From positions 1 through 43,480 of the IMG/VR virus record IMGVR_UViG_3300009320_000035: 43,480 nucleotides of DNA; one strand, 5' to 3'. The DNA comes from a virus. The notes beneath the pieces were generated by a model. It did not search any database, was not told the origin of the DNA, and saw only the letters and a list, made by a program, of their open reading frames with translations. Below are positions 6,315 to 22,608 of the stretch, piece after piece; within the stretch, counting starts at the first letter, position 1; each line of letters starts with the position of its first letter. A program made the position numbers and the translations under genes.

Positions 6315-6336
6315 ATCACTAATATATATTGGTGAT
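6315..6336 (+). promoter_or_regulatory. RBS-sequestering hairpin before HNH gene 3
   Basis: ATCACTAAT (6315-6323) pairs with ATTGGTGAT (6328-6336), nine pairs including one T-G, with a 4-base loop ATAT. The GGTGATT ribosome site of ATG 6341 is in the 3' arm. This is the strongest of the three HNH leader hairpins. Confidence 0.6.
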
Positions 6337-6340
6337 TGGT

Positions 6341-6727
6341 ATGACTGAAACAAAACAAGAAAAATATTTGAAAAAACATCCTGATAGGAGAAAGAAAACA
6401 GTACATGAATATTATCTTAGAAACCGAGAAAAGATTATGGAAAAACAGAGGATTTGGAGGAAACAAAACCCCAAGAAACTAAAAGCACAGATAGATAGAA
6501 ACAATAAAAAATACCGAGAAAGACATAAAGAGAAAAACAAAATACGAAAAATGGCTAGCCATTATCTCAGAAAGAAGATGTTAGAAAGAGATAGTTTCAA
6601 GTGTCAAGATTGTGGGACTGAGGACAATTTAGAGATGCATGAATTGAAATATACCAGAGAATGGAGTGTTGATAATGTTATTACACTATGTAGAAAATGT
6701 CATTCAAAAAGACATAGAAAATTTTGA
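6341..6727 (+). CDS. HNH endonuclease (homing type), paralog 3
   Basis: 128 residues from ATG 6341 (an in-frame TTG at 6329 is within the hairpin). Basic N-terminal repeats (YYLRNREKIMEKQRIWRKQN) lead into HYLRKKMLERDSFKCQDCGTEDNLEMHE and NVITLCRKCHSKRHRKF. Same family as the genes at 1130, 2023, 8400 and 22565. It separates the gene at 5866 from a relic of that gene's original end. Confidence 0.85.
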   Translation: MTETKQEKYLKKHPDRRKKTVHEYYLRNREKIMEKQRIWRKQNPKKLKAQIDRNNKKYRERHKEKNKIRKMASHYLRKKMLERDSFKCQDCGTEDNLEMHELKYTREWSVDNVITLCRKCHSKRHRKF

Positions 6728-6782
6728 TGCTGATGACTATACACGAGTTGAAAAAATAGGATTGCAGAAATATGATAAGTAA
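6726..6782 (+). pseudogene. Relic 3' end of the gene at 5866
   Basis: Read in one frame from 6726 to TAA 6780-6782 this gives DADDYTRVEKIGLQKYDK, which aligns without gaps to the end of the 5866 gene (DSDDISKVQKRGLQKF). Many of the differing codons differ at more than one position, so it is a diverged homologue rather than a fresh duplication. It overlaps the start of the SWIM gene, as an original operon partner would. Confidence 0.55.
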
Positions 6783-7101
6783 GAAAATGTTTTTAAGAGC
6801 GAGAGGCTTCGCACAGGTTATGTTAGAACAAAAGGGAACAAAACACTTATTCCTACAATGTCCAAGTAGTAGAAGTTCCCAGATGAAATATCTATTAACC
6901 TATAACCCTGAAGAAGAAGACTGGAGAGACTCTATTAAATGCTCATGCAAGTGGAGTTCAACTTATGGGATAGATGCAAAGACAGGACTATTAACCAAAC
7001 CTTGCTCTCACATTTTAGCTGGAATGATATTTTTATCACGAAAGTATGGGAAGTTTAAAGAAGAAGTAGAAGCTATGAAAAAGGAGAGCGGTATAGAATA
7101 G
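6772..7101 (+). CDS. SWIM zinc-finger protein
   Basis: 109 residues. The core is CSCKW (residues 62-66) followed about 20 residues later by CSHILAG, the CxCx(n)CxH pattern of the SWIM domain, used for DNA, RNA or protein binding in archaeal and bacterial SWI2/SNF2-associated and stand-alone proteins. The preceding YLLTYNPEEEDWRDS is a typical beta lead-in. There is no helicase partner in the window. Alone, it may act as a nucleic-acid-binding regulator. Confidence 0.75.
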   Translation: MISKKMFLRARGFAQVMLEQKGTKHLFLQCPSSRSSQMKYLLTYNPEEEDWRDSIKCSCKWSSTYGIDAKTGLLTKPCSHILAGMIFLSRKYGKFKEEVEAMKKESGIE

Positions 7102-7104
7102 ATT

Positions 7105-7218
7105 ATGCTTATGATTGTGTGTATCATGAGAAATGACCAATATGATATTGAATTTGATTCGATAAGATTAGATGGTATTCGATACAATGTTATGGCACAC
7201 AATTATAAAATAGAATAG
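7105..7218 (+). CDS. Very small hypothetical ORF
   Basis: 37 residues (MLMIVCIMRNDQYDIEFDSI...). There is no clear ribosome site, although it fills the gap between the SWIM gene and the winged-helix gene exactly. Alternating strand pattern (YDIEFDSIRLDGIRYNV). Confidence 0.35.
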   Translation: MLMIVCIMRNDQYDIEFDSIRLDGIRYNVMAHNYKIE

Positions 7219-7231
7219 AGGTGAATAGAAT

Positions 7232-8032
7232 ATGAGAAAAGATGTAAAAGCAGAGTTAAGCACTCTGTATGCAATAAAAGAATTAGGAGAAGCAACTAGA
7301 GAAGAGCTTCTTCATGAACTAAAAAAAACCTACAAAGTAAAACTATCAGACAAAAAACTAATAAGAATATTAAGAAGATGGAAAGCTAAAGAAGTTCTAT
7401 CTTTAAACTTTGTAGATGGGGAAGAAGTATATAAGATGGCAGATGTGCCAATGTTCCCTAAGCTAAAAATAGCACACCTAAAGAAAATGGCTGATAAAGA
7501 AGCTGGAAAGATAATAGAAGAATTAGAGAACATGGGTAATGAAGCAGGTCATGTAGTTGAAACCAGAAATAAGTGGAGAGACTATGTTGATTTAAATCTG
7601 ACATTTGAGAACATAGACCCAATCTTAGGAGGAGATTCTGGAAAAACAAACAATAGAAGACTTTTCCCTAGAGGAGCTGATGGTAAACTAATCATCAGAC
7701 GTGGTTGGATGTTAGGATGGCTTAGAGAAAATCTAAGACTAATGGATTGTCCGGGAACAGTTAAAAGCTATATAGCTGTTAGTCAAGGAGATTTCATAAA
7801 ACAACCAAAAATTGTAAATTTAGAAGCCATGACACCAAAAGGACCATGCACTTACGAAGCAATACCGGCAGGAACAAAATTCAAAATGCTGATTAGGTTC
7901 CCAATGCAAGGTTCTAAAGTAAGAACTGCTGAAGAATTTATTCAGTTCCTGAAGAAAGCAGAAGTAGCTCCAATCAGAGGATTTGGTGCAAATCCAAATG
8001 TCTATGGTGGGAGAATAAGAGCATTAAACTAA
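7232..8032 (+). CDS. Winged-helix protein with C-terminal Cas7/RAMP-like domain (putative)
   Basis: 266 residues with a GAGGTGAATAGA ribosome site. Residues about 5-70 form a winged helix (ELSTLYAIKELGEATREELL...LIRILRRWKAKEVLSLNF). The C-terminal ~150 residues follow the order seen in RAMP/Cas7-type folds: an early 'ILGG' loop, a strand then LIIRRGWMLGWLREN (compare 'IPGSSLKGxLR'), YEAIPAGTKFKMLIRFPM, EEFIQFLKKAE, and a terminal glycine-rich IRGFGANPNVYGGRIRAL (compare 'GG.GA...GYGRV'). The resemblance is by eye and is not proven. If real, it is a solitary viral Cas7-like protein and could interfere with host CRISPR complexes or bind RNA. It is the last gene of its block; two stable hairpins follow. 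Confidence 0.5.
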   Translation: MRKDVKAELSTLYAIKELGEATREELLHELKKTYKVKLSDKKLIRILRRWKAKEVLSLNFVDGEEVYKMADVPMFPKLKIAHLKKMADKEAGKIIEELENMGNEAGHVVETRNKWRDYVDLNLTFENIDPILGGDSGKTNNRRLFPRGADGKLIIRRGWMLGWLRENLRLMDCPGTVKSYIAVSQGDFIKQPKIVNLEAMTPKGPCTYEAIPAGTKFKMLIRFPMQGSKVRTAEEFIQFLKKAEVAPIRGFGANPNVYGGRIRALN

Positions 8033-8038
8033 GATTTT

Positions 8039-8054
8039 GGTAGCTTCGGCTACC
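8039..8054 (+). terminator. cUUCGg hairpin after the winged-helix/RAMP-like gene
   Basis: GGTAGC TTCG GCTACC: a perfect 6-bp stem closed by C-G around a UUCG loop, one of the most stable RNA tetraloops. It follows a TTTT run four bases after the stop codon and is followed by ATTTAATTTTA. Likely a terminator or 3'-end protector. Confidence 0.6.
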
Positions 8055-8103
8055 ATTTAATTTTACAAAGGATATGAGTGCACTCATTCATGTCCGTAAG
8101 ATT

Positions 8104-8117
8104 GAGACTTCGGTCTC
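8104..8117 (+). repeat. Second cUUCGg hairpin
   Basis: GAGAC TTCG GTCTC: a 5-bp stem with the same C(UUCG)G closure. Between the two hairpins, ATGAGTGCACTCAT (8074-8087) is a perfect 14-bp palindrome. Three stable foldings in 80 bases of an AT-rich genome suggest a structured transcript. Confidence 0.55.
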
Positions 8118-8399: not shown

Positions 8400-8822
8400 A
8401 TGACTTCGACAAATAGGAAAGAATATAATAAGCAGTATTGGAAGGAACATGGTAAAGAATTGGCTAAGAAATTCTCACGATATAAACACGAATGGTATCT
8501 GAGAAATAGAGAAAGAATAAAGAAAGAAGGTGCTTTAAGGTATCAAAAAAACAAAAAACTTTATCCTGAGAGATTTAAAGAGCAAAAGAGAAAGAGTAGA
8601 TTAAGGTTAAATGAACGAGTTAGAGAACGAGAAAGAATTAGAGCATATTGTTTTGTTCATCTAAGAGATAAGATGTTGAGGAGAGATAATAACAGATGTG
8701 TAAATTGTGGGTCAACTGAGAAATTAGAGATGCATGAATTGAAATATGAACGACCACCCATATTAGAAAATCTCAAAACTCTATGTAGAAAATGTCACAA
8801 TAAAACTCATAGAAAATATTAA
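8400..8822 (+). CDS. HNH endonuclease (homing type), paralog 4
   Basis: 140 residues. N-terminal basic repeats (YKHEWYLRNRERIKKEGALRY) and core HLRDKMLRRDNNRCVNCGSTEKLEMHE with NLKTLCRKCHNKTHRKY. No ribosome site precedes ATG 8400; a TATA-like box about 25 bases upstream suggests a leaderless transcript, unlike the hairpin-led paralogs. Its stop overlaps the end of the opposing minus-strand gene at 8819. Confidence 0.85.
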   Translation: MTSTNRKEYNKQYWKEHGKELAKKFSRYKHEWYLRNRERIKKEGALRYQKNKKLYPERFKEQKRKSRLRLNERVRERERIRAYCFVHLRDKMLRRDNNRCVNCGSTEKLEMHELKYERPPILENLKTLCRKCHNKTHRKY

Positions 8823-10875: not shown

Positions 10876-11069
10876 AATGTGGATGGAGAGACCCACTGGC
10901 TCCAGAAGAGGAATTAGGAGAATGTTTTCATGAACAAGAGTGTGTATATTCAGCAGATGGGGATGATGGATTGAGATATTGCACAGACAATAGTAAACAA
11001 TTTGAAAGGTATTATCCACACAATGAAAACATAACCGATAAGAAAATCAAAGAAGGTGTTGATTATTAG
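10872..11069 (+). CDS. Small cysteine-containing protein
   Basis: 65 residues. Four cysteines (KCGWRD, GECFHEQECVY, RYCTDN) with nearby His suggest metal binding. Acidic, no known domain. Last base shared with the next GTG start. Confidence 0.5.
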   Translation: MKCGWRDPLAPEEELGECFHEQECVYSADGDDGLRYCTDNSKQFERYYPHNENITDKKIKEGVDY

Positions 11070-11422
11070 TGAGCAGAAAACAGAAGAAGCATCAGGAACA
11101 CAAAGTGCTTGTAAATAAATTAAGCCATTACTTAAAATACTGTGGATACGAAGTAATAACTAATGAAAGTTATGGGCATTATAATTTAAATGGAAAACCA
11201 ATAGAAGATGGAGAGATAGACTGTATTGCTTTCAAAGATGATGAGATTAGAATATACGAAGTTAAAAGTTTCAGTAAAATGAACGGACTTAAGAGAGCAA
11301 ATAAACAGTTGAAGAGGGGATATAAACGGTTGACTGAATGTTATGGTCCTAAGATGAAATGTCTTAAGTTTTATGTCCATCCTAAAGCAGATGGAGATTT
11401 TTCAATTGAGGTGATTAGATGA
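11069..11422 (+). CDS. PD-(D/E)XK-like nuclease (putative)
   Basis: 117 residues from GTG 11069. The layout KLSHYLKYCGYEVITNES...DGEIDCIAFKDDEIRIYEVKS matches the endonuclease-like core: first helix, first strand, an Asp in GEIDCIA and the ExK in YEVKS two strands later, followed by a basic helix (RANKQLKRGYKRLTECY). This fold covers Holliday-junction resolvases, VRR-NUC and restriction-type enzymes. The single domain and size fit a resolvase or repair nuclease used during replication or packaging. Confidence 0.65.
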   Translation: MSRKQKKHQEHKVLVNKLSHYLKYCGYEVITNESYGHYNLNGKPIEDGEIDCIAFKDDEIRIYEVKSFSKMNGLKRANKQLKRGYKRLTECYGPKMKCLKFYVHPKADGDFSIEVIR

Positions 11423-12094: not shown

Positions 12095-13303
12095 TTCCGT
12101 AAACGTCCCAAACTCGCAAGAGGGGAATGTGGATTCGGAACGCAAGCAAAATATATAACTCACTGTTTAGCTAATGCTGGACATGATGTGTTTGCACTTG
12201 GATATGCTTACAGGGGAGTATCTCAAAGAGTTAATATGCTTCCAGATAAATATCCTCAAGGACATATCACAATGATTCCAAACGGAGAGACTAAATTTGG
12301 AGAGCAGATTTTACCTTATTGGCTTAGAAAAATCCAGCCAGATGTTTTAATCACTCTAGCAGACCTGTGGATGACTGGATACATACATAAAATAAAGATG
12401 GGACACACTAGATGGGTTAGACTTATTCCTTTAGATTCTCATACAATGCTTCCTAGTTGGGCTCAACAGATTCAACACACCGATATTCCAGTAACGTTTG
12501 CCAAATTTGCCAATAAATTAGTTAAAGATACTTGTGGGATTGAGGTTAAAAATATACCTCATGGAATTGATACAAATATATTTACTCCTCTTTCTAAAGA
12601 GAAAAAAGAAAAAGGAAGAGCAAATGCTGGAGTGAATGAGAAAGATTTTGTAATAGGATTTGTATCTAGAAATCAAATTAGGAAGATGCAACCATACTTT
12701 TTTAAAGCATTCGCTAAATTTGCAAAGAACAAACAAGATGTAAAAGCCTTAATTCACATGGATTTAGTAGATGAAAGATTAGGTTGGAATCTCAGAAATA
12801 TTTTCCATCTTTTAAATATCCAAAGTAAAGTAATTAAATCTACTCAAACGGAAGGATTCGCTTTTAAATTTGACATCGATGATAATAAAATGAATGTTCT
12901 GTATAATCTAATGAATGTTCATTATCATCCCGGTTCTGAAGGATTTGGACTATGTCCCATGGAGGCTAATGGTGCAGGAACTCCAAATATCGGAGTGGAT
13001 TATACAACAGCTCCAGAATCGTTAAATTATGGAAAATGTGGCTGGTTGTCAAAAATAGGAATGTTGTGGACTCATCCGGTTGGAGCTGAGTGGGCTATTC
13101 CAGATGTAAATGACTTAGCCAAATGGATGCAATATACCTATGAGAATAGAGAGGAAGTTAAAGAAATTGGTGAAAGAGCAAGGAGGTATGCTGTATCAAA
13201 TTACTCTTGGGATGTCATAGGACCAGAATGGATAAAGTTCGTAGATGAGATAATAAATAATCCACCAGAACCAAACTATAAAACAGGAGAGGTAGGTGTT
13301 TGA
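12069..13303 (+). CDS. GT-B (GT4-like) glycosyltransferase with internal -1 frameshift
   Basis: The intact-looking part runs from about 12095 to 13303 and includes the GT4 donor-site motif EGFGLCPMEANG (E-x7-E) and HGIDTNIF. The natural N-terminus MAKIMLVSDSVNVPNS starts at ATG 12069 (GAGGAG upstream) in a different frame. Both frames are open between 12095 and 12155. A one-base backward slip on GGGG (12122-12125) joins ...NSQEG to ECGFGTQAKYITHCLANAGH, a normal GT4 N-terminal fold of about 411 residues. Either a real frameshift mutation, a sequencing error, or recoding by slippage. It transfers an activated sugar, probably onto a glycan made by this module. Confidence 0.75.
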
Positions 13304-13432
13304 ATGAAACGATGTGTATTTTGTAGAAGAGGATTGGAATTCGATAAACTCTTTCCAGATTTGGTATTCAACGAGAAAGGGGTTTGTAGAGATTGTTATG
13401 AGGAATTGGAAATATTAGCTGGAAGGAGATAA
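13304..13432 (+). CDS. Tiny zinc-ribbon protein
   Basis: 42 residues: CVFCRRG at the start and VCRDCYEEL later, CxxC...CxxC. It starts directly after the glycosyltransferase stop and ends one base before the hydrolase start. Confidence 0.5.
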   Translation: MKRCVFCRRGLEFDKLFPDLVFNEKGVCRDCYEELEILAGRR

Positions 13433-13433
13433 A

Positions 13434-14078
13434 ATGTCTAGATTAGAAGAAATAGAACACTTAAATAGAAAATATGGTAGAAAACCAAAAGAATGCCATC
13501 TTCCTATTGAAGACAAAGAAGGATTACCTAGAGTGCTAATAATAGGAGATTCAATTGCAGTAGGATATGTTCTACGAACTAGAAGAATGTTAGAAGATAC
13601 GTTCAACATTCACTTTATTCCTGTCAATGGTGGACCAACAACCAGAGGACTTGAAATGATAGATGATTGGTTGGGTAATAAGAAGTGGGATATAATTCAT
13701 TTTAACTGGGGTCTTCATGACATTATTGTAAGAAATGGAAAGTATCAAGTACCATTTGATGAATATGAGAAAAACCTCAGACTTCTAGTTGAAAGACTTA
13801 AACAAACTGGAGCTAAATTAATCTGGGCTAGTTCTACCCCAATACCAGAAGATAACGAAGAGCCACACTTTGACCAACCAAGAAGGAATGAAGATGTAAT
13901 CGTATACAATAAGATAGCTAAAATGATTATGAGAGAAAACAACATAAAAATCAATGATTTGTATAAATACTCAATCTCTAAACTCGATATTATGCAGATA
14001 CCTAAAGACTTACACTTTAACAAGACTGGTACTAAAATGCTTGGAGAAGCTGTTAAGAACGCTATAGAGATGATTTAA
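13434..14078 (+). CDS. SGNH/GDSL-family hydrolase
   Basis: 214 residues. Block I is VLIIGDSIAVGY (catalytic Ser in GDS), block III is NWGLHD in place of the usual GxND, and block V is DLHFNKTG with the catalytic DxxH. The family includes carbohydrate esterases and acetyl-transfer/de-acetylating enzymes acting on polysaccharides. No signal peptide, so it acts inside the cell, consistent with modifying a glycan precursor made by neighbouring genes. Confidence 0.85.
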   Translation: MSRLEEIEHLNRKYGRKPKECHLPIEDKEGLPRVLIIGDSIAVGYVLRTRRMLEDTFNIHFIPVNGGPTTRGLEMIDDWLGNKKWDIIHFNWGLHDIIVRNGKYQVPFDEYEKNLRLLVERLKQTGAKLIWASSTPIPEDNEEPHFDQPRRNEDVIVYNKIAKMIMRENNIKINDLYKYSISKLDIMQIPKDLHFNKTGTKMLGEAVKNAIEMI

Positions 14079-14668
14079 TGAATATTGAACAAGAATTTGA
14101 AAAGCTAGATTTAGAACTAAAAGTCGGATTACGTTCTAATTCAGCTAACATAACTATATTCAATATTTTTGAGAAATTAAACCTTCCAAAAGATTCCCAC
14201 TTTGTGGATGTAGGGTGTGGAAAGGGTGGTATTCTATTTCTAGCTCATGCTTATGGATTCAAACAAATCACTGGTATTGAAAACGTTAAGGAGACAGTTG
14301 AAATATGCAGAAAAAACCTAGCTGGAAAGGACATCAAAATAATTGAAGGAGATATAAGAGAAGTTGAAATCGATGATTCTATGAATATTTTTTATTTGTT
14401 TAATCCGTTTGGAAAAGAAATTATGAAAGTGTTTTTAGATAAAATTAAACATCTTCCTAAAGTTCATTTAATCTACAAATATGCAATCTGCCATGACCTA
14501 ATAGAGAAGGCAGGATTCGAACTTAAGAAGGCATTTGGATTAGAAAAACTAGATGGGTCATCTAAATTCCTCACAGAATTAAGCCCTCATTTAAGTGTTT
14601 ATTACTATAAGAAGAATTTAGATAAGTATGGATTTTATGATGATGATAGTGGAGGTTCGATATTATGA
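14078..14668 (+). CDS. Class I SAM-dependent methyltransferase
   Basis: 196 residues. Motif I FVDVGCGKGGILFLAHAYG, motif II ITGIENVKET and post-II IIEGDIREVEI form a standard Rossmann SAM pocket; NIFYLFNPFG fits the motif IV position. Coupled to the hydrolase by a one-base overlap. Substrate unknown; within this module a sugar O-methylation is a reasonable guess. Confidence 0.8.
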   Translation: MNIEQEFEKLDLELKVGLRSNSANITIFNIFEKLNLPKDSHFVDVGCGKGGILFLAHAYGFKQITGIENVKETVEICRKNLAGKDIKIIEGDIREVEIDDSMNIFYLFNPFGKEIMKVFLDKIKHLPKVHLIYKYAICHDLIEKAGFELKKAFGLEKLDGSSKFLTELSPHLSVYYYKKNLDKYGFYDDDSGGSIL

Positions 14669-15636
14669 AAAGAGAAGAAAGTGCTAGCTTCACTGCAGCT
14701 TCAGTGTTCCCAGCTAAATTGCTTGGAATGAAGTTTAAGGATGGGATTATACCACCAGTTCATGTTCAGCTTAATCCAACTAATATATGTAATTTAAATT
14801 GCCCCTTTTGTTCTTGTGCAAATAGAAACAAGACAGAATCACTACCATTAGAAAAGGCAAAGGAAATAATGGTATCATTTAAAGTCTTGGGATGCGAGTC
14901 TGTAACAATTACTGGAGGAGGAGAGCCACTCTTACATCCTGAAATTGATGAGTTATTGGAAATGATACATAATATGAGCATAGAGATAGGTCTAGTAACT
15001 AATGGAACTGCATTTGATAAAGTTAAACCAAAAAACTTGAATAAGCTTATTTGGTGTAGAATTTCTCATGCAGACCACAGACCATTCACCAAAGAATATC
15101 AAAAGTCTTTAGGCGATGCAATTCTTAAAGCTCAAGGTGTTGATTGGGCATTCAGCTATGTTATAGGAAAGAATCCTAACTATGATACTCTTCAGAAGGT
15201 TATAGAATTTGCCAATTTTTATGAATTCACTCATGTTAGAATTGTCTCAGACTTATTAGACTTAGTGAATTGTCCAGACATATTTGATGTTAAAGCTGAG
15301 ATGAAGAAACGAGGAGTTGATGATAAGATAGTAATCTATCAAGGCAGGAAGAGATTTGTTAGAGGATGTAAGGACTGCTGGATTAGTCTATTAAAGCCAG
15401 TGGTCTCAGCAACAGGAGAACTATTCCCTTGTTGTGCAACGCAATATACTACCTTTGAGCCAGAATTAGACTATGGTCCTAAAATGAAATGGGGAGATTC
15501 TAAGGACATTGTTAAGATTTGGAAAGACCAGATTCCATTTGATGGGTCAAAACGATGTGTGAGATGCTATTATATGGACTATAACAAAGCATTATCAATT
15601 ATGAAAACACCACTCAAACATAAAAAATTCCTGTGA
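14665..15636 (+). CDS. Radical SAM enzyme with C-terminal cysteine cluster (SPASM/twitch-like)
   Basis: 323 residues. NPTNICNLNCPFCSC holds the CxxxCxxC [4Fe-4S] site, TITGGGEPLLHP is the GGE motif, and LVTNGTAF is the fourth strand. The C-terminal CKDCWISLLKPVVSATGELFPCC and CVRCYY cysteines resemble an auxiliary-cluster (SPASM/twitch) domain. Such enzymes modify peptides, sugars or cofactors by radical chemistry; context suggests a modified sugar. The start overlaps the methyltransferase stop (ATGA). Confidence 0.85.
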   Translation: MKREESASFTAASVFPAKLLGMKFKDGIIPPVHVQLNPTNICNLNCPFCSCANRNKTESLPLEKAKEIMVSFKVLGCESVTITGGGEPLLHPEIDELLEMIHNMSIEIGLVTNGTAFDKVKPKNLNKLIWCRISHADHRPFTKEYQKSLGDAILKAQGVDWAFSYVIGKNPNYDTLQKVIEFANFYEFTHVRIVSDLLDLVNCPDIFDVKAEMKKRGVDDKIVIYQGRKRFVRGCKDCWISLLKPVVSATGELFPCCATQYTTFEPELDYGPKMKWGDSKDIVKIWKDQIPFDGSKRCVRCYYMDYNKALSIMKTPLKHKKFL

Positions 15637-15640
15637 TTTT

Positions 15641-16027
15641 ATGGCAAAGAAAGGAGAAAAAATATCAGAAAGGCATAAGCAGATACTTAGGGAAAGAATG
15701 ACAGGAAAGAAGAATCCTATGTGGAGAAAGACTGGTAAGAATCACCCTACTTGGAAAGGAAAGACATATTCATTGACAAGAGGAAAATATAAATATATCC
15801 AAATAAATCAATCAACTCACCCATTTTCCAGTAAAAGAGGATATGTCTATGAACATCGTCTAGTTATGGAAAAGCATCTGGAAAGATTCCTAAAACCAAA
15901 AGAAGTAGTTCATCATATAGATGGAAATACTCTTAACAATGATATTAAGAATTTGATGTTGTTTCCTAATGATGCAGCTCATAGACGTTTTCATAGAAGA
16001 TTTAATAGAAAGAAAGATAATATATAA
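15641..16027 (+). CDS. HNH endonuclease with NUMOD3-like motifs
   Basis: 128 residues. N-terminal GKKNPMWRKTGKNHPTWKGK contains two 'N/HPxW' repeats like the NUMOD3 DNA-binding motif of homing nucleases. The core YVYEHRLVMEKHLERFLKPKEVVHHIDGNTLNNDIKNLML is the HNH_3-type domain (HH...N...). It is a different family from the five CxxC-type HNH paralogs. Inserted between the radical SAM gene and a zinc-ribbon gene, with no RBS hairpin seen. Confidence 0.85.
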   Translation: MAKKGEKISERHKQILRERMTGKKNPMWRKTGKNHPTWKGKTYSLTRGKYKYIQINQSTHPFSSKRGYVYEHRLVMEKHLERFLKPKEVVHHIDGNTLNNDIKNLMLFPNDAAHRRFHRRFNRKKDNI

Positions 16028-16039
16028 TAGGTGATGTAA

Positions 16040-16177
16040 ATGCCAATTTGCCCCCATTGTGGATGTACTGACTGTAAACCAGCCAAAGAAGCACCAAGTT
16101 TTTGCTGGAAGTGTAGAAGTTGTTTTAAGTTTTTTTGTGAAAGAAATGTAAATTATGAAATATTGCAGAGGAGATAA
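16040..16177 (+). CDS. Small double zinc-knuckle protein
   Basis: 45 residues with eight cysteines (CPHCGCTDCKP, CWKCRSCFKFFC). GGTGATG lies just upstream. Overlap with the upstream part of the glycosyltransferase reading frame means the latter starts at 16179. Confidence 0.5.
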   Translation: MPICPHCGCTDCKPAKEAPSFCWKCRSCFKFFCERNVNYEILQRR

Positions 16178-16178
16178 T

Positions 16179-16889
16179 ATGAAATTAGGACAGAATCAAT
16201 TAGGAAGACCAACTGTATCAGTAATCATACCAAATAAAGATTGTCCATATTTTCAAGAAGCTCTTGAATCTGTATTAGCTCAAACCTATAGAAACTTTGA
16301 AGTTATTATTATTCTAGACAATTGTTCTGAAGTTACTAAGATAGAGGTATCTAAACTTACTAATGATATTAAAGTTAAAGTAATTATTAAAGATGATGGG
16401 AAGCCAAGCATTCCTTCTGCTAGAAATAGGGGTCTCAAAGAGGCTAAAGGAGAATATATAGCCTACCTTTCTGCTGATGATGTGTGGTATTCAACCTTCT
16501 TAGAGGAAACTGTAGGCAAAGGAGACATAGTCTACACAGATTATGATAGAATAAACTGTCAAGGGAATTGGGTTGGATTTACTGAAGAGAAGAATTTTGA
16601 ATATCATGAAGATTTTGTAATACATCTATGGTACAGATGCTGTGTTAATTTAAGCTCTTGTTTAATTCATAGAAAAGTCTTTGATAAAGTCGGTGGTTTT
16701 GATAATGAGATTCTAATGGGAGAAGATTATTTATTTTATCTATTAGCAGCAAAAACTTTTAAATTTACACACCTAGCAAAGCATCTCTCAGCTTATAGGG
16801 TACATGGACTTCAAACCACAAATTCAGTAGAGAATTTGAAATGGGATGAAATCTTAAGAAAAAAAGCTAGAGAGGTGTGGAATAAATGA
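16179..16889 (+). CDS. GT-A (family 2) glycosyltransferase
   Basis: 236 residues from ATG 16179 (GAGGAG upstream; an in-frame ATG at 16155 is inside the zinc-knuckle gene). TVSVIIPNKDCPYFQEALES is the GT2 nucleotide-binding start, SIPSARNRGLKEAKGEYIAYLSADD carries the metal-binding acidic motif, and GGFDNEILMGEDYLF is the acceptor-side ED motif. Cytoplasmic; adds a sugar from a nucleotide donor. Confidence 0.9.
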   Translation: MKLGQNQLGRPTVSVIIPNKDCPYFQEALESVLAQTYRNFEVIIILDNCSEVTKIEVSKLTNDIKVKVIIKDDGKPSIPSARNRGLKEAKGEYIAYLSADDVWYSTFLEETVGKGDIVYTDYDRINCQGNWVGFTEEKNFEYHEDFVIHLWYRCCVNLSSCLIHRKVFDKVGGFDNEILMGEDYLFYLLAAKTFKFTHLAKHLSAYRVHGLQTTNSVENLKWDEILRKKAREVWNK

Positions 16890-17464
16890 AGTTTGGAATA
16901 TTTGGAGTTGGTAGAGATGGTACTACACTTTTGTGGAGACTTCTCAATTCTCACAGTCAGCTTAAGATAGCTTATGAACCATGTGATAAACACTTTGAGG
17001 GAAAGCTTGAGGATTTTAATGCAGCTAAACAACCCATGCAATTTTCTAATCAGATAATAAAATTAGATAAAACCAAATCAGACTTTGAAAAGTATATATT
17101 CATTAAAAGAAATGAGCTTGATAATGTTTACAGTTTGATTAGAAGAAATAAAAAACCAGTTAACCTTACTAAATTTTATATGAAGAGATATGAAGAGATT
17201 CATAAAAGAATTAAAGAATTTATGAATAAATATCCAAAGATATGTATGCAAATAGAATATGAGAATTTATGTCTTCACACTGAAAAGGTCCTTAAAGATA
17301 TCTGCAAGTTCTTAGATATACCTTATGAGGTTAATATGCTTGAAAAATGGAGAGAAATTGAAGTTCCTGCTTGGGCAAAATCTGCTCAATATCAAACAAA
17401 AAATATTAGATATGTAACAGGAACTTGGATGCGAGATAGAGAATTCATGGAAAGTATTGTATGA
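16886..17464 (+). CDS. PAPS-dependent sulfotransferase 1
   Basis: 192 residues. FGVGRDGTTLLWRLLNSHSQ is the phosphosulfate-binding loop (compare 'GxxRSGTTLLxxLLxxHP'), IFIKRNELDNVYSLIRR matches the 3'-phosphate site, and YENLCLHTEKVLKDICKFL is the typical C-terminal region. Cytoplasmic; would transfer sulfate from PAPS to a glycan hydroxyl. Coupled to the glycosyltransferase by ATGA. Somewhat short for the family but with the main motifs. Confidence 0.8.
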   Translation: MKFGIFGVGRDGTTLLWRLLNSHSQLKIAYEPCDKHFEGKLEDFNAAKQPMQFSNQIIKLDKTKSDFEKYIFIKRNELDNVYSLIRRNKKPVNLTKFYMKRYEEIHKRIKEFMNKYPKICMQIEYENLCLHTEKVLKDICKFLDIPYEVNMLEKWREIEVPAWAKSAQYQTKNIRYVTGTWMRDREFMESIV

Positions 17465-17496
17465 AAGTTGTTGTATTTGTTACAACTAAAACATAA
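17461..17496 (+). pseudogene. Possible remnant 5' end of a lost gene
   Basis: ATG 17461 overlaps the sulfotransferase stop in the usual ATGA way and opens MKVVVFVTTKT before a stop. The peptide resembles the first strand of a glycosyltransferase or Rossmann protein. The next gene starts 19 bases later, so this may be the stub left by a deletion, or chance. Confidence 0.25.
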
Positions 17497-17514
17497 AGTA
17501 TTGGAGGAATTTGG

Positions 17515-18114
17515 ATGGATTTAAAACAGTGGTGGGATAAAGCACATAAAGAAAACATTAACAGATGGGTTAGTGATTATGGAAAGACTAAAATCCATAA
17601 ACTGTTAAATGTTGATGTTAAAGGAACAGTTCTCATTATCGGAACAGGTAGAGGAACTTATGTAAAAGAAATGTTTAAAGATGACTGCACTATAGATGCT
17701 ATGGACATTACAGAATCTGCATTCGATAAGGTTAATCAATATTTAAGGAATAAGTTTATTTTTCCATGTAGTCTTCCTGAAAGCGAATATGACTATATTA
17801 TACATCATTTAGTAGCTCAACACATGAGTGATAATGATTTATTGATTCAGCTTAAAGAGATGATTAAATCCTTAAAATCAAATGGGATTTTAGGGATTCA
17901 ATTCTCTGAAGGAAAGAAATATAATGATTTAGAAGCACAGATGAAAGGAGGAGTTAGAAGAACTATTAAAATAATGAATAAATTAATTAGAAAAGCTGGA
18001 GGAGAAATTGTCTGGTTATCTGAAGGAAACCATCAATATGAAGCTCCAAAAGGATTGCATGACCCTATAAAGTATTACTGTGAATGGTATGGAATTCAGG
18101 TGAAAAGGGTATGA
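17515..18114 (+). CDS. Class I SAM-dependent methyltransferase
   Basis: 199 residues, ribosome site GGAGGAATTTGG. TVLIIGTGRGTYVKEMFKDD (motif I), IDAMDITESAF (motif II) and YDYIIHHLVAQHMSD (motif IV region) give a SAM-binding Rossmann fold; EMIKSLKSNGILGIQFSEG is the following strand. The stop overlaps the next start. Acceptor unknown, likely a glycan or small metabolite in this module. Confidence 0.8.
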   Translation: MDLKQWWDKAHKENINRWVSDYGKTKIHKLLNVDVKGTVLIIGTGRGTYVKEMFKDDCTIDAMDITESAFDKVNQYLRNKFIFPCSLPESEYDYIIHHLVAQHMSDNDLLIQLKEMIKSLKSNGILGIQFSEGKKYNDLEAQMKGGVRRTIKIMNKLIRKAGGEIVWLSEGNHQYEAPKGLHDPIKYYCEWYGIQVKRV

Positions 18115-19076
18115 ATATTATATTAACTGGTCCTATGGGAATAGGAAAGACAACATTCGCTAAGGAATATGCAAAGAATAATGATTTTAAATTTATAGAT
18201 TACGACCACATAGGTGAAGATAAAGCTGCTGCTATAAACAGTCTTCCAACTGGAAACCATATAATTGATGGTATAACTGGACCAGTCCTAAAGAAATTGA
18301 TAAAACCTTATAAAAGATGGGCTTTAGTAACCACACCAGAAATAGTCCTTAGACGTTATGAAGGAAGAAAATATAGGGCTTTAGAATATCAATCAGAACA
18401 GATTAGTCTTGTATTACAGCAACAAATAGATAAAGCAGATGAGGTGATAGTTTTGATGAGTAAAGAAGAAATAAAAGAAGGAATTAGAAAATTTCCTATG
18501 AAATATCAATACATTGAATTTCCTTATGGATTGAATAATGATGGAGCTAGAGGATGTATTGATACATGGAATAGAATAAAGCATCTTGAATGGGAAGGTA
18601 AAACAGTATGCGACTTAGGATGTTATGCTGGATACTTCTGCTTTGAATTAGAAAAGGCTGGAGCTAAACCAACTGGAATTGATATGCCGGGTATAATCAA
18701 TCAGGCTCAGAACTTCGGCTTTATGAAAGGTTCTAAGGTCAAATTCGTAGGAAAGGATTTGGACATCCATCCAGTTCATATCAACTATGATGTCATCTTA
18801 TTACTGAACACTCTCCATCATTTGAGGTCGCCCCTATTTACCCTATGGAATATATTCCAAAAAGGTAAGATGGTAATATTAGAAACAGAATTGCCTAAGA
18901 AATCTATGGATATTCAAGTAGGAGATTGGATTCAGTTGAGTCAGAAAGGAAGAGGTCATTGGTATATGTTTAGTAAGGAAGCATTGATTAAAATAGCTGA
19001 AGAAAATGGTCATATACTAACTGAAGAGATACCTTCCTCAAGACCTAATAGAGCAATATTGGTGTTTAAAAAATGA
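18111..19076 (+). CDS. P-loop kinase-like domain fused to a methyltransferase
   Basis: 321 residues from ATG 18111. Residues 1-140 are a P-loop domain: IILTGPMGIGKTTFAKEYA (Walker A) and an Arg-rich VLRRYEGRKYRAL that could be a lid. Residues about 150-321 are a methyltransferase: TVCDLGCYAGYFCFELEKAG, PTGIDMPGIINQA and YDVILLLNTLHHLRSP, similar to the CmoB/mo5U-type group. A nucleotide kinase-methyltransferase fusion is unusual; both activities may act successively on one sugar or nucleoside. Confidence 0.75.
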   Translation: MNIILTGPMGIGKTTFAKEYAKNNDFKFIDYDHIGEDKAAAINSLPTGNHIIDGITGPVLKKLIKPYKRWALVTTPEIVLRRYEGRKYRALEYQSEQISLVLQQQIDKADEVIVLMSKEEIKEGIRKFPMKYQYIEFPYGLNNDGARGCIDTWNRIKHLEWEGKTVCDLGCYAGYFCFELEKAGAKPTGIDMPGIINQAQNFGFMKGSKVKFVGKDLDIHPVHINYDVILLLNTLHHLRSPLFTLWNIFQKGKMVILETELPKKSMDIQVGDWIQLSQKGRGHWYMFSKEALIKIAEENGHILTEEIPSSRPNRAILVFKK

Positions 19077-19741
19077 AGAATAGCTGTGTAGTTTTAGGTC
19101 CGCCTAGATGCGGAAACCACATGATTATGACTATCTTAATGGCTTTAGGAATGGTAGAACATCATCCGAAAATAAATAAAAGCAATTACCCAAATTATCT
19201 ATTTCAAAAATTAAAAAAGAACAATCATTTTGTATTTGGTGGTCATCCACAATATCCTTTAACTAAAGACAATTTCATCAAATCTGGATTTAGAGGTATT
19301 TATATCACAAGAGACCCAAGAGATTCAACAATAAGCTGGTATTTCTTTATAATGAAATCTAAGAAGCAAAAGTTTCAATGGCTAAAGAAATACACAAAAG
19401 AAGAAGGAATAAATGCCATGATTAGAGGAGTCAAAAAACGTAGCTTTGCGGGAGTAGTTAAAAGATATAAATCTAGAAACGGATGGAAAGTTTGTCCTAA
19501 TGTTTTGTGGGTAAAGTATGAAGATTTACTTAGAAATCCTCAAAGGGAAGTGGATTTGATAGCAACCCACTTAGGAATTAAGAATAGACCATTTAAGAAA
19601 GAATTCCTATTTGATAAACATAGATGGGAATTCAGACAAGGTGAAATAGGAAATTGGAAAAAACATTTTACAGAAAATAATATAAAGACATTCAAAGAAG
19701 TTACTAAAAATCTTTTAGAGGAGGAAGGATACACATGGTGA
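19073..19741 (+). CDS. PAPS-dependent sulfotransferase 2
   Basis: 222 residues. VVLGPPRCGNHMIMTILMALG (phosphosulfate loop), IYITRDPRDSTISWYFF (3'-phosphate site, RDPRD...S), KYEDLLRNPQREVDLIATHL and RQGEIGNWKKHFTENN (matching the 'RKGxxGDWKNxF' C-terminal motif) make a full-length classical sulfotransferase. Coupled to the preceding gene by ATGA and followed by the APS kinase fusion, its likely PAPS source. Confidence 0.9.
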   Translation: MKNSCVVLGPPRCGNHMIMTILMALGMVEHHPKINKSNYPNYLFQKLKKNNHFVFGGHPQYPLTKDNFIKSGFRGIYITRDPRDSTISWYFFIMKSKKQKFQWLKKYTKEEGINAMIRGVKKRSFAGVVKRYKSRNGWKVCPNVLWVKYEDLLRNPQREVDLIATHLGIKNRPFKKEFLFDKHRWEFRQGEIGNWKKHFTENNIKTFKEVTKNLLEEEGYTW

Positions 19742-20592
19742 AATATGCAATGTTTATAGGAAGATGGAGTCCTCCTACCTCAGGTCATAAATTCATAATA
19801 AATAGAGCTTTAAAGAAAGGGAAAAAAGTCTGTATAGCTATTAGAGATACTCCAATTTCCGAGAAAGACCCTTACACTTATGAACAAAGAAAACAAATGT
19901 GGAGATTAATCTATGGAGATAAAGTTAAGATTGTTAAGATTCCAGACATAGAGTCTGTTAATATAGGAAGAAAGGTTGGTTATAAAGTCAATAAGATTAG
20001 TGTTCCTAAAAGGATTAAACAGATTTCAGCTACTGATGTAAGAAGCGGCAAGAATCTTCATGTAGATGGAAACATTAAAAGTTATATAAAGAATATGAGA
20101 ACAACCTTCTGGTTTACTGGATTACCTTGCTCTGGTAAGACTACTCTTGCTTTAGCATTAAAGAGGAGACTTGAGGGGAGAGGTCTTAGAGTTGTTCATT
20201 TAGATGGGGATGATATAAGAAAACATATAAATACTGATTTGGATTTCACTCCTTCCGGTAGGGTAGAAAATCTAAGAAGGGTAGCTGAGATGTGTAATCT
20301 ATTCAATCAAAATCATATAACTGTGGTTGCATCTTTCGTGTCTCCTACTGTTTCGATGAGAAAAATGCTTAGGAAAAAGATAAAAAACTTTAGGTTGGTT
20401 TGGTGTGATTGTCCTAAAAGGATTTGTATTAGGAGAGATGTTAAAGGAATGTGGAAGAAGGCAAGAATGGGTAAAATAAAGAATTTCACTGGATGGAATG
20501 CTCCGTTTGATGAGCCAAAAAATGCTATAAAAATAAACACAAGATTAAAAGTAGATAAATGTTTAAATTTGTTGGAGGCGATGATATGGTAA
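19735..20592 (+). CDS. Nucleotidyltransferase-adenylylsulfate kinase fusion
   Basis: 285 residues. Residues 1-110 are a cytidylyltransferase-like nucleotidyltransferase: FIGRWSPPTSGHKFIINRAL ('GxxxPxxxGH') and ISATDVRSG ('ISxTxxR'). Residues about 120-285 are APS kinase: WFTGLPCSGKTTLALAL (Walker A), VHLDGDDIRKHI, SGRVENLRRVAEM and VVASFVSPTVSMR. APS kinase makes PAPS from APS and ATP. The N-terminal domain shares the fold of ATP sulfurylase's catalytic domain, so a compact PAPS synthase is conceivable, though the motif is closer to NMN/glycerol-type transferases. Confidence 0.85.
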   Translation: MVKYAMFIGRWSPPTSGHKFIINRALKKGKKVCIAIRDTPISEKDPYTYEQRKQMWRLIYGDKVKIVKIPDIESVNIGRKVGYKVNKISVPKRIKQISATDVRSGKNLHVDGNIKSYIKNMRTTFWFTGLPCSGKTTLALALKRRLEGRGLRVVHLDGDDIRKHINTDLDFTPSGRVENLRRVAEMCNLFNQNHITVVASFVSPTVSMRKMLRKKIKNFRLVWCDCPKRICIRRDVKGMWKKARMGKIKNFTGWNAPFDEPKNAIKINTRLKVDKCLNLLEAMIW

Positions 20593-21674
20593 AACTTACT
20601 GTTAATTTTTATGGAAAGGGTGAAGTATTTGGAGGATGTGAGGAGTTCTTTAACCAATTTAAGCTAGTTGACCCAGCTTTCCAGCACGTTAGTTATAAAA
20701 GAGCTTCTACTGCAGTTGGTAATCCACACACTCCGGAAAACTTAGGATTCTTTGAAATAGAAGGAGCATTGATTTTGGATGAATATCTCAAACAATATGA
20801 ACAATTATTCAAACCAAAAGTGATTGTAAGAAATGGTTGGTGTGGGGGATATGTTAAACTTAAAACACCAACTATCGCAATCCATCAAGATGTTCATCAT
20901 ACGGCAGCCAGAATACTACTTGATAGAGGAATGTACACACCTTATGAATTCAATAGAGTTGGTGTGGTATTTCCGGATATTCAAAAGAAAGTAGCTGCAC
21001 TCGCAGTTAAAAACATAGCAGTTAGTCCCTTTGTTCAGGAGAAATTTAGAGAGCTTGGAATAGAAACTAAGGTAATTCCTCATGGAGTGGATTTAAAACA
21101 ATTTAGAGAAGTTCCTGATAGAGATGTTTTGAGAGAAAAATTGAGGAAAGAGTTTAAAATAACCCAAGACCATATAGGACTTTGGGTCGGTAGATTTCAT
21201 CCTCAGAAAGGATGGCATATAATGAGAGAGTTAATTAAAAGTTATCCTAATATCCATTGGATTTGCCTATTCAGTGCTTATCATAATAAGAAAAGGAGAT
21301 TGAAAAATGCTACACTACTTCAACCAGCCAAAAGAGAAGATATGTTCCAGCTGTACAATTTAGCTGACTTTTATTGTATGACTTCTTGTACAGAAAGTTT
21401 CAGTCTTACTTCTTTAGAAGCTATGGCTTGCAATACCCCAGTATTGGGTCATAACACAGGTATATTATATAGTCTGAATAAGGACTTCGGATTAAAGACA
21501 AATGAATGGAATCCAAAAGGATTCAAAGAAATAATTGATAATTTTCTACAAGGTCAGAAATTCAATCCACAAAAAGTAGCAGAACAATATTCAATGGAAA
21601 AATGGAAAAAAGCGTGGAAAGAAGTAATTCATTCCACGCAAACACAATCTTCGTCTATTTCAAAACAATCCTGA
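20586..21674 (+). CDS. GT-B (GT4-like) glycosyltransferase
   Basis: 362 residues from ATG 20586 (GGAGG upstream; the longer in-frame start at 20559 lies inside the kinase gene). N-terminal acceptor domain with a GGCEEFF loop. HGVDLKQF and LWVGRFHPQKGW begin the donor domain, and TESFSLTSLEAMACNTPVLG carries the E-x7-E motif. The last gene of the rightward module; its 3' end overlaps the convergent membrane-protein gene by 46 bases. Confidence 0.9.
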   Translation: MVKLTVNFYGKGEVFGGCEEFFNQFKLVDPAFQHVSYKRASTAVGNPHTPENLGFFEIEGALILDEYLKQYEQLFKPKVIVRNGWCGGYVKLKTPTIAIHQDVHHTAARILLDRGMYTPYEFNRVGVVFPDIQKKVAALAVKNIAVSPFVQEKFRELGIETKVIPHGVDLKQFREVPDRDVLREKLRKEFKITQDHIGLWVGRFHPQKGWHIMRELIKSYPNIHWICLFSAYHNKKRRLKNATLLQPAKREDMFQLYNLADFYCMTSCTESFSLTSLEAMACNTPVLGHNTGILYSLNKDFGLKTNEWNPKGFKEIIDNFLQGQKFNPQKVAEQYSMEKWKKAWKEVIHSTQTQSSSISKQS

Positions 21675-22066: not shown

Positions 22067-22608
22067 CGTAGTGCACTATTTAATTTTTTAATTTTCTATG
22101 CTCTTTTTTATGACAATCACGACATAAAGTTATTAAATTCTTCATTTTTTGAGGCATTTCATATTTCAATTCGTGCATCTGTAAATTGTCTTTTGATTTG
22201 CATATTTTACATTGGAAATTATCACGCTTTAACATTTGTTCTCTTAATCTATCTTTTGCCCACCTTCTAATACGTTCCCGTTCTTTTAATATATCATTCA
22301 TTTTTTCTCTATATTTTCGTCTTATTTCTTTAACTTTTTTTGGATTTCTTAAAATATAATCCCTTTTTTGTTTTCTTATTCTTTCTTTATTATTATCTAA
22401 CCATTTTCTTCTTCTCAATTTAGTTTCTAATTTGTTATTATAATCTTTCCATTTTTTGAGCAACTTTTTTTTGTTTTTTTTCACATATCTCTTTCTTTGT
22501 TCTTTAACTTTCTCAGGATTATTAATTTTCCATCTTCTATTATATTCTTTTTTATCGTAACCCATTATACTATTATAGCAGTCATTTTATATAAAGATGT
22601 GCACTACG
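22067..22608 (-). mobile_element. HNH cassette 5 inside a split 14-bp palindrome
   Basis: CGTAGTGCAC (22067-22076) and GTGCACTACG (22599-22608) flank the minus-strand HNH gene. Collapsing the shared GTGCAC gives CGTAGTGCACTACG, a perfect 14-bp palindrome just before the ribosome site of the membrane-protein gene. I infer insertion of an approximately 530-base cassette with a 6-base repeat at a palindromic target. Confidence 0.45.
22080..22565 (-). CDS. HNH endonuclease (homing type), paralog 5
   Basis: 161 residues from ATG 22565 (MGYDKKEYNRRWKINNPEK, the same start as paralog 2). The longest basic repeat region of the family, then DRLREQMLKRDNFQCKICKSKDNLQMHE and NLITLCRDCHKKEHRKLKN. No ribosome site is visible; a TTTATATAAAA box about 24 bases before the ATG suggests a leaderless transcript. 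Confidence 0.85.
   Translation of the reverse strand: MGYDKKEYNRRWKINNPEKVKEQRKRYVKKNKKKLLKKWKDYNNKLETKLRRRKWLDNNKERIRKQKRDYILRNPKKVKEIRRKYREKMNDILKERERIRRWAKDRLREQMLKRDNFQCKICKSKDNLQMHELKYEMPQKMKNLITLCRDCHKKEHRKLKN

Follow-up and report, generated by a model that had tools for sequence, protein, structure and literature searches.

A tailed virus, probably archaeal, encodes an orphan protein that joins a winged-helix-like head to a predicted RAMP-like domain: a candidate Cas7-type decoy

The window, by which we mean the whole stretch of 43,480 bases analysed here, is a virus contig of linear form. It carries an HK97-type structural module made of terminase, portal (PF04860) and a capsid protein of the SU10 type (PF17236). 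Among phage records, this capsid protein matches only those of haloarchaeal tailed viruses (27.6% identity, E 6e-17), so that the host is probably an archaeon; the type of Shine-Dalgarno signal and codon use, with arginine mostly encoded by AGA (72% of arginine codons in the window), point the same way. The virus group also has a more distant member, a 27-kb virus contig whose capsid protein shares 38% identity with the one encoded in the window.

The gene of interest is the open reading frame at 7232-8032 (+). It runs from ATG to TAA with no internal stop and codes for 266 amino acids: the ORF listing and the translation show a real, intact gene. An archaeal-type Shine-Dalgarno sequence, GAGGTGA (7218-7224, +), lies 7 nt upstream of the ATG, and a GGTGA/GGAGG signal also precedes many other genes of the record. 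Upstream, in the same direction, are found a gene for a protein of 109 aa that bears a CxC...CxH (SWIM-like) motif and matches nothing in Pfam (6772-7101, +) and, between this gene and ours, a small ORF of 37 aa, putatively coding and probably part of the same operon (7105-7218, +). Downstream, an array of three consecutive hairpins, two of them with UUCG loops, occupies 80 nt directly 3' of the stop codon (8038-8117, +) and contains one long central stem. With a fold z of -5.5, equalled by 0 of 200 shuffles, it is, once G+C is corrected for, more stable than any other 90-nt window of the record. It has no match in Rfam and no second copy in the sequences searched. It may be a terminator or a 3' UTR.

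The protein begins with a predicted (winged) helix-turn-helix-like domain of approximately residues 1-72 (7232-7447, +), followed by a helical linker, residues 80-104 (7469-7543, +). That a winged helix would be found at this place had been proposed from the sequence. The single-sequence model agrees in giving a tri-helical, HTH-like arrangement, but the family matches remain below threshold, with E 0.013 for PF17598, under the cut-off of that family, and E 0.012 for phrog_6943. We infer a DNA-binding role for this head. A 13-nt inverted repeat (TTATGATTGTGTG / CACACAATTATAA, 92% complementary) is present upstream of the gene, at 7109-7121 / 7196-7208, and is a possible operator for the winged helix, about one such pair being expected by chance on a rough estimate.

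Compared with Pfam, PHROGs, NCBIfam, PADLOC and the sequences of the PDB, as a whole and domain by domain, the protein found no significant match; these profile searches, which included the C-terminal domain, yielded no confident placement in an unrelated family either. A tblastn search of phages and plasmids at E 10 was likewise empty. IMG/VR was scanned for patterns drawn from the whole protein, for others from its C-terminal domain and for three motifs, degenerate or gapped, made by hand; the matches were all due to chance. Scans of genome contigs gave no true relative, it being understood that such scans require exact short matches, which distant relatives would escape. At the search sensitivity used the protein is an orphan, and conservation and covariation are therefore not derivable. 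Related viruses were retrieved via terminase and capsid (best distinct relatives at 68% and 65% identity, respectively), and the gene is absent from the sequences available for them. A near-identical virus fragment (terminase 100%) and the 68% relative come from other samples; neither contig carries the gene, and as both are short fragments this absence says little. A fold search of BFVD gave no named Cas-like viral protein.

What can be said of the C-terminal part comes from single-sequence AlphaFold models, with a pLDDT of 39.3 and a pTM of 0.33 for the whole protein and a pLDDT of 40.8 for residues 106-266 alone (pTM 0.33-0.35 across both). The whole-protein model places helices at 3-16, 23-34 and 40-55 in the head, 80-86 and 89-104 in the linker, and 157-168 and 233-242 further on, with strands at 118-126, 181-185, 208-212, 217-224 and 259-262. 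From strand 118-126 on, the order is beta-alpha-beta-beta-alpha-beta, that of a RAMP domain, with a glycine-rich loop between helix 2 and strand 4, so that the ferredoxin-like core on which the original prediction depended is present in the model, at a pLDDT of 39. The model of residues 106-266 fits the same order, with the last strand missing (pLDDT 39-41 for the two models).

All the sequence motifs that had been claimed for this protein are there, in the order claimed. Strand 1 (118-126) is followed by the ILGG loop (residues 131-134; together 7583-7633, +), by inspection the counterpart of 'TGLHIGG' in Csm3, then by GADGK at residue 148. RRGWMLGWLREN (residues 156-167; 7697-7732, +) would form helix 1 of the ferredoxin-like core. 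YEAIPAGTKF (208-217; 7853-7882, +), which corresponds to 'ERVPAGxxF' of Csm3, precedes strand 3. After helix 2 (233-242; 7928-7957, +) comes the terminal glycine-rich loop RGFGANPNVYGGRI (249-262; 7976-8017, +), before the last strand and near to the RAMP motif-V consensus G-phi-G-x5-G-phi-G (PMC3727216). Not one of 200,000 shuffles contained, near the C-terminus, [IVL]PxG[TAS]x[FY] followed by G(hydrophobic)G-x4-7-G-x-G in the same order and with the same spacing; the figure is optimistic, since the query was already known when the second pattern was drawn up.

When the models were submitted to Foldseek against the PDB, every one of the first 12 matches of the whole-protein model was a subunit of a class 1 CRISPR effector, in most cases Csm3 (best match 4qts_D, E 0.0079, probability 0.85), and chains from type IV (8rc2_L), I-D (7sba_A) and VII (8z4l_A) complexes were also among them. 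With residues 106-266, 4qts again came first and the first 6 matches were chains of Csm complexes, at E 0.25-0.55. For neither model was there a match at E <= 0.001, and TM-scores reached at most about 0.4. Matches obtained from low-confidence models can be meaningless. Finding the same family first in two model runs is nevertheless hard to explain by chance, although the runs share sequence and network and hence are not independent. Much further down the lists appear chains of the AAV origin-binding domain and viral Rep proteins, which would suit a replication or DNA-nicking protein (an HUH Rep or origin-binding domain with its RRM-like fold). We reject this reading as highly improbable: the translation has no H-x-H motif, and the matches, with a probability of about 0.1, are far below those of Csm3.

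Further comparison with Csm3 used an alignment of 10 Csm3 genes located on plasmids, either annotated or found by tblastn. Set against the profile of these 10 sequences, the single sequence was aligned by hhalign over the IPAGTKF region only, and not significantly (P 0.04-0.07); 14 of 300 shuffles did as well, as did several unrelated proteins. A strict chain of five Csm3 blocks with Csm3-like spacing gave no signal: 813 of 3000 shuffles did equally well. After this failure the spacing was relaxed, the pseudocounts were softened and the number of blocks was reduced, and the outcome is counted as support, not as proof: three ordered Csm3 blocks reached 28.4 bits, against 4.7 +/- 4.3 for shuffles (0 of 2000 as good), and none of 436 pieces of unrelated proteins did as well, the best of them scoring 27.6. 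Under the same relaxed test Cmr1, Cmr3, Cmr4, Cmr6, Csm4 and Csm5 scored between 11.7 and 39.5, a range of divergent true RAMPs that overlaps the value of 28.4. The main contributor is EAIPAGTKFKMLIRF, with 13.9 bits; when the whole protein was shuffled 2000 times, 3 shuffles did as well.

The original prediction had equated RRGWMLGWLREN with the 'GSSLKGxLR' helix of RAMPs. Its position in the model fold, that of PGSSLKGxLR in Csm3, agrees with this, but its residues do not: the segment LIIRRGWMLGWLRENLR obtains -0.2 bits against the Csm3 block, with little in common beyond GxLR, and in the relaxed test it was PILGGDSGK, not helix 1, that took the PGSSLKG block. The loop GFGANPNVYGGRI, which follows helix 2 and precedes the last strand, is a near but inexact match to the glycine-rich consensus G-phi-G-x5-G-phi-G that RAMPs carry (PMC3727216): in GFG-ANPNVY-GGRI (250-262) the spacer has 6 residues instead of 5 and no positive charge, and there is no hydrophobic residue between the last two glycines. 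The loop after strand 1 holds D129, D135 and D150; read without gaps, by inspection, an N falls opposite the slicer aspartate of Csm3, in an alignment that is itself unsure. The PF03787 (RAMPs) profile has no match anywhere in the record. As the protein has neither a significant match to a RAMP or Cas7 profile nor the helix-1 motif, and as its fold matches come from low-confidence models, it is not filed as a member of the Cas7/RAMP family.

Overall, Csm3, the backbone RAMP of type III-A systems and a Cas7-group protein (PDB 4qts, from T. thermophilus), remains the nearest known protein, as the best fold match on two occasions and with a single ferredoxin-like core, on models of low confidence. 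In the whole-protein model the viral protein has, like Csm3, a glycine-rich loop ahead of the last strand and after helix 2, and VPAGxxF in Csm3 corresponds to IPAGTKF, before strand 3, in the viral protein. The latter differs from Csm3 in lacking the PGSSLKG residues at helix 1 and the long insert after it, in having a smaller domain, no cas neighbours and a winged-helix head, and in being unmatched by any Csm3 or RAMP profile. The Cas7-like subunits of types IV, VII and I-D, also among the first 12 whole-protein fold matches, show no detectable sequence relation to it, nor does it have adjoining effector genes. What defines the Cas7 group is a single RRM domain, with no second one after the G-rich loop (PMC3150331), and the viral protein ends right past its own G-rich loop. 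The proposal of a RAMP/Cas7-like C-terminus draws on Csm3 and Cas7 chains heading two fold searches and on the block-chain test, while the models are of low confidence, no match attains E <= 0.001 and no profile is significant. We consider a RAMP-like, Cas7-group fold for residues 112-266 (7565-8029, +) to be somewhat probable.

Were this fold wrong, the likeliest alternative would be a plain winged-helix transcription regulator with an unrelated domain, ferredoxin-like or of another alpha/beta kind, that binds a ligand, in a layout resembling that of Lrp, the Csm3 matches then being due to chance motifs and to the low confidence of the model. Archaea and their viruses have many regulators that combine an HTH with a ferredoxin-like domain, and the low confidence of both models, together with the want of any significant RAMP family profile, would fit. 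Yet neither Lrp/AsnC nor another regulator appears in Pfam and NCBIfam even at E 10, and none is among the best 50 fold matches, plentiful as they are in the PDB, while Cas7 chains lead both runs. Lrp/AsnC proteins do share the succession of an HTH and a ferredoxin-like domain; here, by contrast, there is neither profile nor fold match, and the C-terminal domain is about twice as long, so that an identity with Lrp/AsnC as such is rejected. The broader reading is quite possible, if short of even odds.

That no other cas gene lies in the window is confirmed for the 57 proteins compared with PADLOC, none of which has a Cas match below E 0.004, on a linear and possibly incomplete contig. No CRISPR-like array is present among the repeats found there. 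A Cas effector subunit is normally recognized by the cas genes or the array that accompany it, and within the contig the protein has neither. Two weaker matches, of a Cas4_II model to 11069-11422 (E 0.005) and of a Cas10 model to 1118-1543 (E 0.017), were judged to be noise. The first region (+) encodes a small nuclease-like protein with a PD-(D/E)xK-like motif, GEIDCIAF...IYEVKS. The second belongs to a set of at least five HNH endonuclease-like paralogues (1118-1543, 1990-2475, 6329-6727, 8400-8822 and 22080-22565), with long, basic, coiled N-termini and DNA repeats common to four of them.

The reading that we prefer, at a probability of roughly one in three for the explanation as a whole, is that of a decoy. 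The virus would make a two-part protein, in which a helical linker connects a winged-helix-like head with a single, minimal RAMP domain that belongs to the Cas7/Csm3 group. This domain would mimic a backbone subunit of the Cas7 type, and the defective mimic would enter, or cap, the filament that binds the crRNA in a type III effector or a related one of class 1. Meanwhile, the winged helix would bind viral promoter DNA and restrain expression of its own gene, as in Acr-Aca fusions, which repress their own promoter (PMC13131331). Action on CRISPR and autoregulation by the head are both inferred. If the fold is right, poisoning of an effector is the best-precedented role for a stray viral Cas-like protein, because AcrIB3 mimics and replaces Cas5, with which it shares 38% identity, and AcrIF25 uses a Cas7-Cas7-like interface (PMC13131331). 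With these Cas-mimic anti-CRISPRs our protein would share the mode of action, that of a stray subunit-like viral protein hindering a class 1 complex. It differs from AcrIB3 in having no measurable identity with a Cas protein, and is itself a candidate inhibitor. Likewise, AcrIF24, AcrIIA11 and AcrIIA15 offer a parallel for the possible pairing of an inhibitor with an HTH autoregulator; in AcrIF24, however, the HTH is at the C-terminus and the protein is not RAMP-like, whereas here the head is N-terminal.

For type I systems, viruses are known to mimic Cas5 as well as the Cas7-Cas7 interface. A Cas7/Csm3-like mimic from an archaeal virus, with a built-in DNA-binding domain, would if real widen the range of subunit poisoning to include type III or related systems, and would suggest that viruses recruit RAMP domains for counter-defence or for the control of RNA. 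The most specific version, of a first Cas7-group mimic fused to its own autorepressor, a minimal and inactive Csm3-like subunit that poisons type III (or IV/VII-like) filaments, possibly with an RNA ligand encoded 3' of the gene, appears to us unlikely.

That RNA lends itself to another view, the main rival to the decoy if the fold is right. The protein might be an RNA-binding, RAMP-like regulator with no part in CRISPR, binding viral or host RNA (for example its own 3' hairpins) while its winged helix binds DNA, and so tuning viral expression. The fold evidence, Csm3 being first in both Foldseek runs, is identical for this reading; the strongest RNA structure of the record begins 5 nt past the stop codon; and cas genes are absent nearby. 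The hairpins might just as well be a terminator or 3' UTR of the ordinary kind, though, one of the three being terminator-like, and no known family with such a role was found. Few RAMP proteins are known outside CRISPR. We deem this reading rather doubtful, and that the 8038-8117 RNA is a ligand of the RAMP-like protein is speculation.

Elsewhere in the window, 12188-21674 (+) is a viral block of cell-surface and small-molecule genes. It comprises two group-1 glycosyltransferases and one of family 2, two sulfotransferases, methyltransferases, a GDSL hydrolase, a radical SAM protein and a fusion of a nucleotidyltransferase-like domain with an APS kinase. The block perhaps supplies activated sulfate for the sulfation of glycans. 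One protein of the window, reported with the radical SAM gene of this block, matches viperin models (E 1e-13).
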